This document shows, in pieces, positions 21,205 through 26,399 of a stretch of 34,304 bases of DNA. Position numbers and translations under genes: made by a program. Below the pieces are notes generated by a model. The model saw nothing but the letters and a program-made list of their open reading frames with translations. It was not told where the DNA came from and did no database searches. Every line of letters starts with the position of its first letter. The first letter of the stretch is position 1. Source of the stretch: Saprospiraceae bacterium (GTDB lineage Bacteria; Bacteroidota; Bacteroidia; Chitinophagales; Saprospiraceae); the NCBI GenBank assembly GCA_021739645.1, contig JAIPBL010000072.1, positions 1 to 34,304 of the forward strand, read 5' to 3'.

Positions 21205-22035
21205 TCACCCCAACCTCTTCAAATCCTCCATCGCCGGAATCGCCGAGAGCAGTTCCATGATATACCCTGCTTTCTGGTGCAGCCGCTGTAGCCGGTCCTC
21301 CTTCGAGACACCCTCCTCGATATAGCTGGCGTTCAATGTTTGCAAATTGGCAAGCGTAACCAATTGCTCCGGAGAAGCCTGGTCACGGACATTGCCCTTG
21401 GCTTCCGGGTGCTGAGCCCGCCATTCCTTCGCCGTCATCCCAAACATTGCTAGGTTCAGCAAATCAGCCTCCGAGGCCATCTGTATGGCTTCCCGCTTCG
21501 TGTTCCAGTCCATGATAGGCACTAGGTTCTTGCGGACAGCATCCGTGTGCAGGTAGTAGTTCACCTTGGCCAGCTCCCGTTTCCAGTCCCAGCCGAGCTT
21601 GTTCCGTTCATCGTCCTCCACCTTCAGCCGCTGGAACTCCTTGATGACGTACAGGTAAAAAGTAGGACTGAGCCAGTTCGCAAACTGGATGGCAATGTCC
21701 CGGTGCGCATAGGTACCGCCATACCGCCCCGCCGTCGCATGAATGCCGATGGCCGCCGTCTCGCCGACCCACTGCTTCACCGTCATGATAAAGGCATTGG
21801 CCGTACTCTCGAATCTAAAACGGTTGTAGGCAACCGTTTTAAAACCCTCGTTGTGGAAAATCTCCCAAGTCCCAAGGAACTCGATGTTCGCCGAGCTGCG
21901 CATCCATGCCTTCAGCACGTCGTTCGGCACCGGGTTGAACTTCCGAGCCATGTCCGTCAAAGAGATGTACTCGTCATTTCGCTGTGAAATCAGGTTAATC
22001 TCAGTGCCATCCGCAATGATTTTTCGATTCGCCAT
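21205..22035 (-). CDS. KilA-N domain protein (276 aa)
   Basis: The KilA-N domain covers about residues 1-140. It opens with NDEYISLTDMARKFN and ANIEFLGTWEIFHNEGF, and contains AIGIHATAGRYGGTYAHRDI followed by AIQFANWLSPTFYLYVIKEF, the most conserved block of this phage and element DNA-binding domain. The C-terminal half is helical (WDWKRELAKVNYYLHTDAVR, LVTLANLQTLNASYIEEGVS). The length matches other bacterial KilA-N proteins. A DNA-binding regulatory role in a phage-like element is the usual guess, but the target is unknown. It is GC-rich like the element, with no clear promoter upstream. An 11-bp perfect inverted repeat (21816-21826 with 21831-21841) lies within the coding sequence. The stop overlaps the GTG of the integrase relic. 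Confidence 0.92.
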   Translation of the reverse strand: MANRKIIADGTEINLISQRNDEYISLTDMARKFNPVPNDVLKAWMRSSANIEFLGTWEIFHNEGFKTVAYNRFRFESTANAFIMTVKQWVGETAAIGIHATAGRYGGTYAHRDIAIQFANWLSPTFYLYVIKEFQRLKVEDDERNKLGWDWKRELAKVNYYLHTDAVRKNLVPIMDWNTKREAIQMASEADLLNLAMFGMTAKEWRAQHPEAKGNVRDQASPEQLVTLANLQTLNASYIEEGVSKEDRLQRLHQKAGYIMELLSAIPAMEDLKRLG

Positions 22036-22374
22036 CGTGGGTTTAGTTTTTTAGTAAAGCAGCAAGGAACGGCCCGCTGCCCAGCATTTTTATCAGGAAA
22101 GTATGTACTGGAATGAGCCTGCAAGGTACAAGAAAGCCCGGTTCATATCCAACCCCTCCCCCGAAAAAACGCCCGCCAATCCGACCCCTTCCGCCATTGA
22201 CCACCCCCTATAATTCCCATTCGTAAATCGTAAATCCAAAATCGTAAAACCCCGTCCGCTTTTCCCATCCCCACAAAGCGGACAGAATCCTGATTCTGTA
22301 CTCCCCCGCACCCCCCCAACGCAACAAGTTTTTTTCGCAGAAAACCGTGACATTTGTAGGAAAACCGCCATGCG
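22036..22374. other. 339-base divergent intergenic region
   Basis: It lies between the divergent KilA-N gene and the recombinase-ATPase gene. It holds a short direct repeat (ATCGTAAA at about 22217 and 22233) and a promoter-like GACATTTG at about 22349 (one mismatch to TAnnTTTG) 20 bases before ATG 22375. No gene, terminator or strong hairpin is apparent. Two overlapping minus-strand frames look non-coding. Confidence 0.55.
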
Positions 22375-23886
22375 ATGATTGAATCAAGCAAGAAAATCAG
22401 GCTCGTCCCAAGCAATTACCAGGACATTTTGGCCAACCACAGGAACCGGAAAACGAAGCTGCAGGCGATGCTCATGCTCGACTGCGGGCTACGGGTGAGC
22501 GAGGTGGTGAAGCTGAAGGTGAAGCATTTCGATTTTTACCGAAGGGTAGTGAACGTGGAGAGCCTGAAGAAGCGGGAATCCGGCGTTTTCCGCCCCATCC
22601 CGATGACGGACCGGGTGTTTGCGGCGCTCGCCGACTGGTACGAGCGGATGCCTGACCGCAAGAACCCCGAAACCTGGCTGTTTCCAGCGGGAAAAGGCAG
22701 CCACAAGGAGCACATGGACCGCAAACAGGTTTGGCGGCGGGTGAAGAAGTGGACGGACGGCGTCGCCAGTCCCCACGACCTGCGGCACACGTTCGCCACC
22801 CGCATCGTCAGCGAGGGAAACGACATCCGGGTAGCGCAGAAACTCCTCGGACACGCCAGCCAGACCACCACGGAAATCTACCTGCACGTGCCACAGGAAC
22901 AATTGAGGCGGGCCATCCGGAGCCTGGAGCGGAAAAGCTGGGGCGAGAAGGTTTTCGAACGGTTTTTCCCAAAAAAGCCCATCCATATCCTGCCCGTCGA
23001 GAAGGGTCTGACCAAGTACCACATCGGGCGCAAGGACGAACTGGCCAAGCTGTACTTCCTGTCGGAACGCAAGATTAACACCCTCATCATCGGCCCGCAG
23101 GGCATCGGGAAATCGCACCTCGCCGACAACTACACCGGCAGCGAGAACATCATCCGCATTGACGAAATGACGGCCATCAACAAGATGCTCAGCGGCTGGA
23201 TTTGCGCCATCTCCGAGAAGTTCCCCGAACGCACCGAAATGCTTTACAACGACCCGGAGAAGCCCGTCGCAGACATCGTGGAAAAGAAGGCCATCAAGTT
23301 CCTGGTCGAAGACCTCATTGCGCTCACCACGAAGGGCGAGTGGACGCTCATCATCGACGACGTCTCGAACATCACCCCACGGGGCATCAACACGCTGGAG
23401 CGCCTCAAAAACCACTTCCACATCATTTGCTGCGCACGAAAGGTCGAGGTGAAGAAAGGCACGTTCCTCTCCAATTTCGAGCGGATTGACCTCAAACCAC
23501 TGCCACGGGCCGAAGCCACCGAACTGGCCATGAAGCTAAGCCGGTCATTCCTGGACAAAGTGGAGGACATCGAAGCCTTCAAAAACCACATCTGGGAGAA
23601 CACCGTCGGCGTACCGCTTTTCATTTACGAAATGGTCGAACGCTACTCGAAAGAAGAGCACATCAGCCTCGAAATAGTGAAGGAAGTCAGGCACACCGCA
23701 GCCGTACCGGAAACCAACGCCGCCCCGTTCGTCATTGGCTTCCTGGCCAGCTTCAGCGTGTTGAGGTATGCCGCAAGGGCCATCGGCGGCGACATGACGC
23801 CCATCTACATCCTGACGGCCATCGGCATGTTGTTCCTGATTTTCGGCCGCCAGTTCATCACCGCCACCAAACGCAAGTACGTATGA
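22375..23886 (+). CDS. Tyrosine recombinase fused to a P-loop ATPase and two C-terminal TM helices (503 aa)
   Basis: Residues 1-185 are a tyrosine-recombinase catalytic domain: CGLRVSEVVKLK (R40), HDLRHTFATRI (H134, R137), LGHASQTTTEIYLHV (H160, nucleophile Y169). The usual N-terminal core-binding domain is absent. Residues about 205-440 form a STAND/AAA-like ATPase: a lead-in YHIGRKDELAKLYFL, Walker A GPQGIGKS (240-247), Walker B TLIIDDV (D328/D329), and LKPLPRAEATELAMKLSRSF, resembling the winged-helix side of STAND ATPases. Residues about 452-470 and 476-492 are hydrophobic (FVIGFLASFSVL, IYILTAIGMLFLIF) and end in KRKYV. This would be a membrane-bound recombinase with ATP-dependent control. 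The gene overlaps the next by ATGA. I know no named family with this order. Confidence 0.9.
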   Translation: MIESSKKIRLVPSNYQDILANHRNRKTKLQAMLMLDCGLRVSEVVKLKVKHFDFYRRVVNVESLKKRESGVFRPIPMTDRVFAALADWYERMPDRKNPETWLFPAGKGSHKEHMDRKQVWRRVKKWTDGVASPHDLRHTFATRIVSEGNDIRVAQKLLGHASQTTTEIYLHVPQEQLRRAIRSLERKSWGEKVFERFFPKKPIHILPVEKGLTKYHIGRKDELAKLYFLSERKINTLIIGPQGIGKSHLADNYTGSENIIRIDEMTAINKMLSGWICAISEKFPERTEMLYNDPEKPVADIVEKKAIKFLVEDLIALTTKGEWTLIIDDVSNITPRGINTLERLKNHFHIICCARKVEVKKGTFLSNFERIDLKPLPRAEATELAMKLSRSFLDKVEDIEAFKNHIWENTVGVPLFIYEMVERYSKEEHISLEIVKEVRHTAAVPETNAAPFVIGFLASFSVLRYAARAIGGDMTPIYILTAIGMLFLIFGRQFITATKRKYV

Positions 23887-25715
23887 GTGGCCCTAATCAC
23901 ATCGTCGGAGGAACTGTTTTCACTGGGCTTTTCGGCTCGTTAATGTTCGGCATCAACATCCTGGCCTCGCCCGTCACCATCGGCATTGCCATCGTTGCCA
24001 GCCTCTTGCCGGACATTGACCACACCCGTTCCACGGTCGGGAAAATCGTTTATCCCCTCGCAAAATGGATAAACCGCAAGTACGGCCACCGCACCATCAC
24101 GCACGGGATGCCGTGCTTTGCCGTGCTGACCCTCCTGAGCGGCGCCATCGAGCGCACGTTCTTTGGGCACCTGGAATGGACGGCTATTTTCGCACTGGGC
24201 TATTTTTCGCACCTGGTCCTCGACATGTTCACCCTGCAGGGCGTCCCGCTGATGTACCCGTTCAGCCGCAGCCCGTGGGTGATGATTGGCAACCCCGACA
24301 AGCGAATCCGAACCGGCGATTACCGAAAGGAAGCCGTCGCATTTTCCATTTTCATCTTGATGGGAATGTTCCTGCAGCCGCTTTTCTCGAAAGGATTTTG
24401 GACGGTCTGGAATCAGAAACTCGCCACCCTGCAGCACGTCCACGGCGAATTCCTCAACAGCCACGACCTGCTGAAAGTCACGTACACCATTACCGAAGGC
24501 ACCAACAAACGCCACGGCAGCGGCATCCTTATCGAGAGCAAAACGAACGAAGCATGGTTGATTGACAGCACCGGCCAGTGGGTATTTTTGAAAGAACCGA
24601 CTTGCACGAGGGCATTTCCTGAGCATACCGGCCAACCGCTCAACATCCAATCCGCCAACCTTATCAACCTAACTACCGACAGCCTCAACGCCGTACTGTT
24701 TGGCAAAAAGCTCCTCTCCATCGAAGTACAGGCAAACACCAACTTCCAAGTGACCGAATCAGGCAACTACCCAAAAACCGGGAACGCCTACACCGGAGAC
24801 CACCTCTCAACCCCGCCCAGCTTCGCCGCCATCAACCAATCCCCCAGACTGGACACCTTCATAAACGACCGCAGCTATATGGCAGAAATAGCGGAAATAC
24901 AAAGCGAAATCCAGCGCATCAGAGCCGACGCCAGCCAAGCCCAAAGCGCACAGCGCAGCCACGAAGCCCTCATTTCCAACCTCAGAAGCCAATACGCCGC
25001 CACCGACGACATCACCGAACGCCAGCGCCTGCACGACGAAATCGAAACAGCCTTGTCATCCTGGAAGGAACCCCAGGTGGACGAATCCAGGACCGAGGCA
25101 TTGAAAGGCCGCATCGCAAAAATCCGAGCCGAAGCAGGCTTGAAGGAATCCGCAAAGGAAACCGAGGTACAGGTGAAAAACCGGACAGCCATCAGCCAAG
25201 TCGTGGAGCTGCGGTTGACCGGAATCATCACGTTTTTGGGCGAAGAAAAACCCGTGCCCAGCAGAGCGCCAATGCCACAGGACACCATCCTTCCCAAAAC
25301 CTACCGGGTCATTGGCGTAAAGGACGGCGACAGCATCGAAGCCTTCGACCCCGACTCAAGTCGGGGCACCAAAACCCGTTTCGTCATCCGCCTTGCCCAC
25401 GTGGACTGCCCGGAGAAGCGGCAGCCGTTCGGACAGAAGGCCAAGCAGTTCACCTCCGACTTTTGTTTCGGCAAGCAAATCACCATCCAGCAGACCGACA
25501 CCGACCGCTACCGACGGAAAGTCTGCCTCGTGTATGTCGATGGCCGGGAACTGAACTTGGCACTCGTCGAATCCGGCTTCGCATGGCACTACAAAAAGTA
25601 CAGCAAAGACCCAAAGTATGACACCGCCGAAAAAGCCGCCAGAACCGCCCATGCAGGCTTGTGGGCCGACGCATTGCCCATCCCGCCATGGGAATGGCGC
25701 AAAATCAAAAAATGA
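23883..25715 (+). CDS. YdjM-like membrane metal hydrolase fused to a staphylococcal-type nuclease (610 aa)
   Basis: Residues 1-175 match the YdjM/YfhO-type inner-membrane hydrolase family (DUF457-like): GPNHIVGG (H6), LLPDIDHTRSTVGK (D44, D46, H47), GHRTITHG (H69, H74), FSHLVLDMFT (H110, D114), with several TM segments. Residues about 180-330 form a soluble beta domain of unknown type. Residues about 340-440 are coiled coil (IQSEIQRIRADASQAQSAQR, LKGRIAKIRAEAGLKESAKE). Residues about 465-605 are a thermonuclease (SNase) domain: VIGVKDGDSIEAF, RLAHVDCPE, DRYRRKVCLVYV, LNLALVESGFAWHYKKY, RTAHAGLWAD; the two Arg, the Glu and the Asp of the active site appear present. It is translationally coupled to the recombinase-ATPase. 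A membrane-anchored nuclease is the most direct reading. Confidence 0.88.
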   Translation: MSGPNHIVGGTVFTGLFGSLMFGINILASPVTIGIAIVASLLPDIDHTRSTVGKIVYPLAKWINRKYGHRTITHGMPCFAVLTLLSGAIERTFFGHLEWTAIFALGYFSHLVLDMFTLQGVPLMYPFSRSPWVMIGNPDKRIRTGDYRKEAVAFSIFILMGMFLQPLFSKGFWTVWNQKLATLQHVHGEFLNSHDLLKVTYTITEGTNKRHGSGILIESKTNEAWLIDSTGQWVFLKEPTCTRAFPEHTGQPLNIQSANLINLTTDSLNAVLFGKKLLSIEVQANTNFQVTESGNYPKTGNAYTGDHLSTPPSFAAINQSPRLDTFINDRSYMAEIAEIQSEIQRIRADASQAQSAQRSHEALISNLRSQYAATDDITERQRLHDEIETALSSWKEPQVDESRTEALKGRIAKIRAEAGLKESAKETEVQVKNRTAISQVVELRLTGIITFLGEEKPVPSRAPMPQDTILPKTYRVIGVKDGDSIEAFDPDSSRGTKTRFVIRLAHVDCPEKRQPFGQKAKQFTSDFCFGKQITIQQTDTDRYRRKVCLVYVDGRELNLALVESGFAWHYKKYSKDPKYDTAEKAARTAHAGLWADALPIPPWEWRKIKK

Positions 25716-25730
25716 CCAAACCCATCAACG

Positions 25731-26399
25731 ATGAACCCGACTGCAAAACCCACCCCCTCTTTTTTTCATCCCGTAGGGACCTGTTCCATCATTTTCGCCC
25801 TTCTCCTTTTCACCAACCACGCCAACAGCCAACCACCAACAGCCAATAACCAACTGCCCTCAGCCGACTCCCTACACGCCGCCCTCACCCAATACCACCA
25901 ACGCCTCACCGCTGCCACTCTCGCCGAGTTCGATGATGCCACGCCTGGCCAGTGGATGAATTACGTCCCATCCGTAGGCATCGGTTACAACCTCGCCACC
26001 GACGCCGAAGGCCGCATCACCTCCAAGCCCCGCCCCGCCATCTCCTTTTCCCTCGCCCAAGTCCTCACCGCCCGCCGTCAGCGCCTCGACCGCCGAGCCA
26101 AGCGCCGCAGCATCGAAGCCACCGCCGACATCGCCCTCGATGACGCCCACCGGCAGCTCGACCAACTCCTCTCCAAATACGAACTCCTGACCCTCGAACT
26201 CCTAACCATGCGGAAGCTGCACGAAATTGACGAATCGCTATACGAACTGGCCGTTTTGGATTACGAAGCAGCGAAGCTGGCGCCGAGCGGGTTTCTGCCG
26301 AAGCGGAAGGCGTTTTTGGAAAGTGAGCTGGATTTGCTACGGAAGGAGATGGAGGTGAAGGCTTTGGAGGGGGAGATATTGAGCGCTGCGCACTATTAA
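25731..26399 (+). CDS. Secreted/periplasmic helical protein, weakly TolC-like (222 aa)
   Basis: Start at ATG 25731, 15 bases after the nuclease stop. A hydrophobic stretch (GTCSIIFALLLFTNHANS, about 17-34) serves as signal peptide. The mature part begins with a Pro/Asn-rich linker, then PSVGIGYNLATDAEGRITSK followed by PRPAISFSLAQVLTARRQRLDRRAK, a pattern reminiscent of the strand-then-long-helix layout of TolC-family proteins, followed by long helices to the end (LSKYELLTLELLTMRKLHEI, FLESELDLLRKEMEVKALEG). It is about half the length of a TolC, so any kinship is uncertain; it may be a cut-down outer-membrane or periplasmic partner of the coupled membrane nuclease. GC-rich like its two upstream neighbours, with which it probably forms a three-gene operon. 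Confidence 0.7.
   Translation: MNPTAKPTPSFFHPVGTCSIIFALLLFTNHANSQPPTANNQLPSADSLHAALTQYHQRLTAATLAEFDDATPGQWMNYVPSVGIGYNLATDAEGRITSKPRPAISFSLAQVLTARRQRLDRRAKRRSIEATADIALDDAHRQLDQLLSKYELLTLELLTMRKLHEIDESLYELAVLDYEAAKLAPSGFLPKRKAFLESELDLLRKEMEVKALEGEILSAAHY

Follow-up and report, generated by a model that had tools for sequence, protein, structure and literature searches.

The window analysed here is a stretch of 34,304 nucleotides, contig JAIPBL010000072.1 of assembly GCA_021739645.1, from a Saprospiraceae bacterium. Our subject is a pair of forward-strand genes in it: an open reading frame (ORF) at 22375-23886 encodes a protein of 503 amino acids (aa), and a second ORF at 23883-25715 encodes a protein of 610 aa. 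The two share an ATGA overlap, which suggests that the proteins may be synthesized in fixed proportion. An earlier reading of the same letters, hereafter the original prediction, described a membrane-bound tyrosine recombinase-ATPase coupled to a membrane-anchored SNase, possibly a new mobile or defence module. ORF analysis, Pfam and hydropathy confirm both overlapping ORFs, the recombinase core lacking a core-binding domain, the P-loop ATPase, the two transmembrane (TM) helices, and the YdjM and SNase domains. Residues 195-436 of the 610-aa protein and a third gene at 25731-26399 were absent from that description. The parts are as follows, with evidence in parentheses.

22375-22932, forward strand: tyrosine recombinase catalytic core, residues 1-186 of the 503-aa protein, R-K-H-R-H-Y complete, core-binding domain absent (Pfam Phage_integrase, 1.2e-34; 27-protein alignment)
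22933-23886, forward strand: P-loop ATPase with a C-terminal two-TM hairpin, residues 187-503 (A1 alignment; hydropathy)
23883-24371, forward strand: YdjM membrane hydrolase domain with about six membrane helices, residues 1-163 of the 610-aa protein (Pfam YdjM, 7.7e-27; invariant columns; AlphaFold2 model)
24465-25190, forward strand: beta-rich domain (195-316) and long helical hairpin (331-436), whose anatomy suggests an adaptor, or membrane fusion protein (AlphaFold2 model)
25386-25670, forward strand: SNase domain, residues 502-596 (Pfam, 5e-24; alignment with stand-alone SNases)
25731-26399, forward strand: putative TolC-like protein with a single repeat, 222 aa, third gene of the module (family hidden Markov model (HMM); AlphaFold2 topology; profile A7)

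The pairing on which the original prediction was built is a conserved one. A tblastn search of 72,556 plasmid records with the ATPase part found 19. Two Haliscomenobacter plasmids match best (41.8% identity), followed by plasmids of Flavobacterium, Flammeovirga and Spirosoma, and each of these Bacteroidota plasmids carries a recombinase-ATPase near a ‘metal-dependent hydrolase’ (split in Flammeovirga). Weaker matches in Methylobacter, Nitrosococcus and Thermus are stand-alone ‘ATP-binding proteins’, likewise near YdjM. Searching with YdjM matched 145 plasmid records; the best 60 of the 145 were listed, and the same pair is found in Thermococcus, cyanobacteria, Fusobacteria, Allochromatium and Thiospirochaeta. 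Ten YdjM neighbourhoods were inspected, and two of them, on a large Azospirillum replicon and in Flammeovirga kamogawensis, are without such an ATPase. Across three ATPase queries, YdjM lies within 5 kb of the ATPase in at least 61 of 67 plasmid records among the matches listed (at least 18/19, 25/25 and at least 38/43 by query); the other six records have no YdjM among those matches. In all, plasmids with the combination come from cyanobacteria, Thermus, gammaproteobacteria, Fusobacteria, a spirochaete, Desulfocapsa and Thermococcus.

Within Bacteroidota, we compared a first set of 26 loci, five from plasmids, 16 from a scan of genome contigs and five from relatives. In 25 of them YdjM shares the strand of the recombinase-ATPase and lies no more than 2.5 kb from it, and in 22 the distance is at most 600 nt; the one miss, locus L032, stops at a contig end. 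The YdjM frame is split or cut in L011, L028, L029, L031, L038 and L039. A second set comprised 20 regions from the family, reduced to 19 since L132 repeats L031. YdjM is present in 16 of these; L120 is cut about 1.1 kb downstream, and L121 and L129 show none. Pooled, the two sets place YdjM beside the recombinase-ATPase in 41 of 45 loci. The divergence of the two proteins is correlated (Spearman 0.71, 0/2000 permutations, 29 selected pairs, in two of which the ATPase part still included recombinase residues), a value to which shared host descent may contribute. Within the family, the recombinase-ATPase is present in 31 of 398 genomes. A single-sequence search of 296 genomes of the phylum returned the window, two partial matches and nothing else. 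Profile A1, built from 15 ATPase proteins of five bacterial phyla and an archaeon, gave P-loop noise matches in 100/100 relatives and full-length matches in 8 genomes, including that of the window. A phage origin was rejected, as the ATPase part matched no phage record and a first viral scan was empty. One contig of a viral collection did match (L072:4051-6879), with YdjM, a recombinase domain and the ATPase as three separate ORFs. On sequence comparison, the conserved unit is the ATPase with YdjM, accompanied by TolC-like and adaptor-like parts, on plasmids.

The recombinase domain keeps a complete set of catalytic residues. Phage_integrase matches residues 12-173, and no SAM-like core-binding domain matched ahead of residue 12. 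In an alignment of 27 recombinase-ATPases, the catalytic residues of the window protein are R40, K65, H134, R137, H160 and Y169, with K246 in Walker A and D328/D329 in Walker B. The R-K-H-R-H-Y set is whole in 23 of the 27, five of them from complete plasmids, and Walker A is present in all 27; Y169, R137 and K246, the positions that the original prediction had proposed to check, belong to these sets. Because the whole catalytic set and the ATPase share one frame in those 23 proteins, the fusion is not a frameshift artefact. An origin by frameshift was also rejected on the many independent fusions, including one in the spirochaete Thiospirochaeta. The four incomplete sets come from L063 and L039, which are cut or split, and from L070 and L071, two degenerate copies in one genome. 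At the latter (L070:1493-2998 and L071:4459-5847) several catalytic recombinase residues are gone, yet the ATPase, YdjM and TolC-like genes are kept.

The ATPases of the family share a C-terminal TM hairpin. Hydropathy places TM helices at residues 449-467 and 472-490 of the 503-aa protein, and this hairpin carries the signature RYxGxGxGDxxLYxxGG. An extra copy of the hairpin alone lies at L040:7394-7639; the intact gene is 1.7 kb ahead of it, and a lipoprotein-like gene separates the two. The original prediction had linked the ATPase to the STAND type, a label left unconfirmed for the window protein: its AAA and nSTAND matches in Pfam are all under cut-off (nSTAND_NTPase5, 19.1 bits vs 34), and it ends in the TM hairpin, with no sensor repeats. 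The Thermococcus and Stanieria ATPases pass the nSTAND1 or nSTAND3 cut-offs. In the cyanobacterial locus L019 (6189-6956), an intact P-loop lies upstream of the annotated start, which is too late. Among the loci examined, fusion to the recombinase is restricted to Bacteroidota and Thiospirochaeta. Elsewhere the recombinase is a separate gene of the operon (Desulfocapsa), lies elsewhere on the plasmid or is absent. The original prediction took routine separation of recombinase and ATPase as evidence against its proposal, and this separation contradicts it in part. In Desulfocapsa the genes form an overlapping run of unfused tyrosine recombinase, a gene judged OEP-like by eye, ATPase and YdjM.

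The 610-aa protein begins with YdjM (PF04307, residues 1-137, 94.3 bits vs a cut-off of 29), whose invariant columns include H6, PDxD, GHRTxTH and HxxxD. An AlphaFold2 model (11 sequences, mean pLDDT 68, pTM 0.36) predicts about six membrane helices, the beta domain, the long helical hairpin and a returning strand. The pLDDT is about 75-90 over most of the beta domain and hairpin; the SNase part is of low confidence. With Foldseek, staphylococcal nuclease is the single match at E ≤ 0.001. Weak lipoyl-like motifs occur in adaptor-like parts of Thermus, the Synechocystis PCC 6803 plasmid pSYSX and Microcystis. In the Thermus YdjM protein a coiled coil lies near them (Biotin_lipoyl_2, 0.0019, under cut-off). 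In cyanobacteria the adaptor-like part is a separate gene, with Biotin_lipoyl_2 at 0.0029 in L073 (pSYSX) and 0.0036 in L025, both under cut-off. Searches of solved-structure sequences with the adaptor parts gave coiled-coil noise. Other genes of envelope type stand behind YdjM: a CHAP domain protein in Allochromatium (L022:8197-9084), a NEW3/CARDB-type protein in Thermococcus (L018:8927-10861) and BACON repeats in Thiospirochaeta (L017:5822-7474). Flavo-1 RNAs (RF01705) lie behind YdjM on the opposite strand at L037:8652-8726, L036:8659-8736 and L035:9618-9694, about 45 nt away in two loci and 1 kb in one.

The third gene may supply an outer-membrane component. Of 27 loci searched with its family HMM, 18 have a homologue; one of these is a remnant of 60 aa, and that of Spirosoma is several kb distant. 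Among the 19 later Bacteroidota regions, 7 have one. In Saprospirales these genes lie downstream of YdjM; in Flavobacteriaceae and two Bacteroidales metagenome-assembled genomes (MAGs) their place is upstream of the recombinase-ATPase. Pfam, including OEP (PF02321), matched nothing in the 222-aa protein. Its counterparts give OEP matches over cut-off in Thermus (1.9e-9) and Nostoc (1e-5) just under cut-off in Fusobacteria (1.8e-4) and Flavobacterium (5.4e-4), and under it in L027 (0.006). The AlphaFold2 model of the 222-aa protein (pLDDT 71, pTM 0.43) consists of a helix, two strands, a 76-residue helix and a helix. One TolC repeat has this order: helix, strand, strand, long helix, helix. The best solved-structure match of profile A7 (17 sequences) is the TolC-family protein CmeC, at E 0.0064; the same search with a second OEP set gave no noteworthy match. 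A hydrophobic N-terminus (score ≥2.0) is found in 11 of 23 OEP-like proteins vs 21% of 400 background ORFs. Foldseek left the CmeC lead unconfirmed; on these results we call the predicted product TolC-like rather than TolC.

A further component is seen in four of seven cyanobacterial loci. In Synechocystis pSYSX, Nostoc 7524, S. elongatus UTEX 3055 and Stanieria, an ATPase of the type IV coupling protein (T4CP)/HerA type follows one or two genes after YdjM. The four putative pumps match TrwB_AAD_bind at 2.3e-10, 5.8e-9, 3e-7 and 1e-6, over cut-off as whole proteins, and the Stanieria protein also holds a GIY-YIG nuclease domain (1.1e-7). On pSYSX the module is present in two copies with identical protein accessions (L073:4346-10895 and L137:4065-10614). 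Each copy has a short recombinase (188 and 187 aa) upstream on the opposite strand, at distances of 2.2 and about 6 kb, and is followed by an SNase gene. The HMMs for the pump, adaptor, cyanobacterial TolC, OEPg, OEPf, OEPt, SNX and NUCA necessarily match the proteins that seeded them; the matches independent of the seeds are those to pump, adaptor and TolC in L020 and to the adaptor in L025.

The coupling to SNase, which the original prediction treated as a feature of the module, is peculiar to the window: among 44 module loci and 20 further regions, no other YdjM protein carries the domain, and SNase as a conserved partner was rejected on the same survey. A stand-alone SNase gene is found within the fetched stretch in Riemerella columbina, where it overlaps the YdjM gene, and in a Prevotellaceae MAG, Fusobacteria, Thermus and cyanobacteria. 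An SNase or DNA/RNA non-specific endonuclease is present in 11 of the 44 loci, window included, by HMMs built partly from these proteins. The other 33 have no such nuclease in the fetched stretch, the flanks differing in length, and SNase occurs in 0/20 of the further regions. The window domain retains the residues common to seven aligned SNases, among them those that we take to be catalytic. All six stand-alone SNases scored have a hydrophobic N-terminus (≥2.36; the weaker matches L023 and L077 were left out), suggesting from sequence that module SNases probably act outside the cytoplasm. Since the window domain also sits behind the hairpin, it may be periplasmic.

In 21 complete module plasmids, relaxase PF03432, the one relaxase family covered by the search, was found in 0/21 (control matches in Lactococcus), and VirB4 (PF03135) likewise in 0/21 (control matches in Caulobacter). 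PLSDB types the ATPase-bearing records as non-mobilizable in 19/19, 25/25 and 41/43, a label that may be weak for these phyla. The module is present on model plasmids, namely pSYSX, a Picosynechococcus PCC 7002 plasmid and Thermus plasmids. Relatives of replication initiators lie near the gene in L008, L010, L016, L026-L032, L036, L039 and L041; thus several MAG loci are plasmids or plasmid-derived. In the window, Rep and ParA queries found no relative, and a circular contig was rejected as its ends have no terminal overlap.

We also scanned the region upstream of the gene, with eight block shuffles per locus for palindromes. Four plasmid-like Flavobacterium loci have a long imperfect palindrome immediately 5' of the recombinase-ATPase gene (approximately L010:9298-9369, L035:5311-5382, L036:5331-5402 and L037:5314-5386). 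Its arm sequences differ yet pair, and an inner loop, AANGCAAGC, and a CCCC/GGGG tip are conserved; Rfam gave no match there. It may act as a single-strand DNA site resembling attC or a transfer origin, or be an RNA leader. In L027 (5236-5273), L028, L029 and L030 a perfect inverted repeat (GGGAATGCACGGA/TCCGTGCATTCCC) upstream of the recombinase-ATPase has a T run after it and is terminator-like. At 22030-22380 of the window no inverted repeat of ≥10 nt with arms ≤40 nt apart is present, and a recombination site beside the window gene was rejected.

One neighbour in the window is possibly outside the module:

21205-22035, reverse strand: KilA-N protein (Pfam, 1.9e-20; PADLOC PDC-S22)

The KilA-N gene is a recurrent neighbour in Saprospirales: the window shares it with a Haliscomenobacter plasmid and L026-L030, and its homologues lie in L008 and L026-L030. 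The surrounding stretch, 12365-32567, is rich in defence genes: a serine resolvase, a DEDDh exonuclease, an FRG protein (PDC-S15), a VPA1262-like protein (PDC-S05), KilA-N and a type I restriction system (hsdR, hsdS, hsdM). PADLOC assigns the pair itself to no system, giving just a match to the SNase domain (C3a212, 1.9e-8) and weak coiled-coil or P-loop matches; a known defence system for the pair was rejected on this result.

How might these parts work together? We suggest, with a probability of about 0.48, that the locus encodes the version found in Bacteroidota of a plasmid-borne DNA-handling apparatus that spans the envelope, likeliest for transfer without type IV secretion. The parts can be read as a tube from the cytoplasm to the outside with a DNA-cutting enzyme at its inner end. 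The recombinase domain, built like relaxases of the tyrosine-recombinase type, would use its tyrosine to cut a site on the plasmid. The ATPase joined to it, anchored in the inner membrane by the TM hairpin, would dock the DNA on the YdjM inner-membrane assembly and drive it. The periplasmic adaptor-like hairpin of the YdjM protein would meet a TolC-like outer-membrane tube, and plasmid DNA would leave, or enter, the cell with no type IV secretion system involved. In some cyanobacteria the T4CP/HerA-type pump may take part of the job, and the SNase may trim DNA at the periplasmic side. Comparison across loci establishes the domain content, the conserved partnership, the frequent plasmid location and the absence of PF03432 and VirB4 from the 21 plasmids, as far as sequence goes; we infer TolC-like and adaptor folds in the window, DNA as the cargo, its direction and every catalytic step. 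Transfer is favoured, over both a secretion or barrier role and membrane-bound dimer resolution, because the published relaxases MobK, TcpM and MpsA likewise lack arm- and core-binding domains, and the MobK tyrosine is needed for transfer. The original prediction was right that the proteins are membrane-bound and DNA-related; of its two suggested roles, the mobile one is favoured and the defensive one less so.

Several observations weigh against transfer. Transfer has not been observed, and an origin for it was not found. In the accessible part of PMC10667661, small Synechocystis plasmids are reported to move by transformation alone; the transfer measurements there concern pCA2.4 and pCB2.4, and pSYSX appears by name only. 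Most other plasmids carry a longer recombinase apart from the module, an arrangement that suits plain dimer resolution. Walker B is altered in several of the 27 recombinase-ATPases, and the ATPase of the cyanobacterial locus L023 (5877-6671) has a degenerate P-loop with the TM hairpin kept. The pump is seen in cyanobacteria only, with no match on the records of the other three of the seven loci; a six-frame, stretch-wise scan of 21 whole plasmid records gave TrwB_AAD_bind matches in five, over cut-off in one. The adaptor-like parts of L019, L023, L074 and L075 have no lipoyl match, and matches elsewhere are under cut-off. The best non-SNase Foldseek matches of the YdjM-SNase model are MscS-type channels (YnaI, 0.0046, not significant). 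For the 222-aa model Foldseek gave no significant TolC match, the best being V-ATPase subunit D (E 0.03), with TolC at ranks 18 and 35. In one set of eight OEP-like proteins, three have OEP matches, none over cut-off; the other five, three of them gammaproteobacterial, and the Desulfocapsa protein have none, the gammaproteobacterial and Desulfocapsa proteins being called OEP-like by eye. Finally, a nuclease next to exported DNA is odd.

An alternative is that the module serves plasmid maintenance: the fused recombinase would resolve dimers, the membrane ATPase would control it as FtsK does XerCD, and YdjM would anchor the complex. Counting module-bearing plasmids alone, a tyrosine recombinase is present on 19 of 21, and the fused one is the sole recombinase in five Bacteroidota plasmids. 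ParA and Rep genes are frequent neighbours, and the 14.4-kb plasmid pA5BP1 retains the module. However, maintenance leaves unexplained the TolC-like and adaptor-like partners, the secretion-like N-termini of the SNases, the T4CP-type pump and a membrane hydrolase with an invariant pattern resembling metal ligands, and the window gene has no inverted-repeat site beside it. We consider this explanation unlikely. Equally doubtful is a role in secretion or as a barrier, in which the apparatus exports effectors in the manner of TolC-type systems, or a periplasmic SNase traps and degrades incoming DNA in defence against, or exclusion of, plasmids and phages. TolC-type parts normally export, and both the nucleases at 11 of 44 loci and the defence-rich setting of the window would suit such a role, but no conserved cargo gene was recognised beside the module, the majority of loci have no nuclease within flanks of differing length, PADLOC matches no system, and the presence on plasmids of an archaeon and many phyla is better accounted for by transfer or maintenance. 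Budding of plasmid-loaded vesicles, with YdjM cleaving phospholipid, would accord with Zn_dep_PLPC (zinc phospholipase C) matches under cut-off in the window (0.0019), Thermococcus (0.0012) and Thermus (0.00033) and with the module in Thermococcus, which has no outer membrane, but it is very improbable, having no direct evidence and with TolC-like and T4CP-like parts that point to a channel.

If transfer is the function, the module may tentatively be regarded as a class of DNA-transfer machine so far without a description, which does not depend on type IV secretion and which, in at least seven bacterial phyla and an archaeon, is carried by plasmids typed as non-mobilizable. Its core would be a membrane AAA ATPase and YdjM, with an adaptor and a half-TolC tube where there is an outer membrane, a T4CP-like pump in some cyanobacteria, and a relaxase-like recombinase fused in Bacteroidota. 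For many plasmids no transfer genes are recognised and the means of spread is an open question, to which the module offers a testable candidate. If its function is not transfer, a conserved plasmid apparatus common to bacteria and an archaeon still has no described function in the literature searched.

The original prediction knew of no system with this pair, and literature searches for the module or its parts found no description, most subscription papers and preprints being outside their coverage. We know of no system with this set of parts. Its closest parallels are partial. The accessible part of PMC8152469 describes MobK of pIGRK, TcpM of pCW3 and MpsA of SGI1 as tyrosine-recombinase-like conjugative relaxases on plasmids or mobile islands, each a catalytic domain with the pentad and tyrosine and without an arm- or core-binding domain; the MobK tyrosine is required for transfer, and a type IV secretion system mobilises MobK in trans (PMC8152469). 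The window domain, which we liken to them by description and not by sequence, differs in being fused to a membrane ATPase, and the 21 module plasmids are without VirB4. The TrwB/TraD coupling proteins and HerA are approached by the ATPase behind YdjM in four cyanobacterial loci, whereas the same plasmids have no VirB4 or PF03432 relaxase and the window has no pump. XerCD with FtsK also ties tyrosine recombination to a membrane-anchored ATPase; here the two are one polypeptide, the ATPase is unmatched by the FtsK family, and envelope partners are present. The tripartite TolC-type exporters, composed of TolC or CmeC and a membrane fusion protein, resemble the module in the TolC-like protein and the adaptor-like hairpin, but the module protein has one TolC repeat instead of two. 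In those exporters the inner-membrane part is of the ABC, RND or MFS type; in the module its place is taken by YdjM and an AAA-type ATPase.

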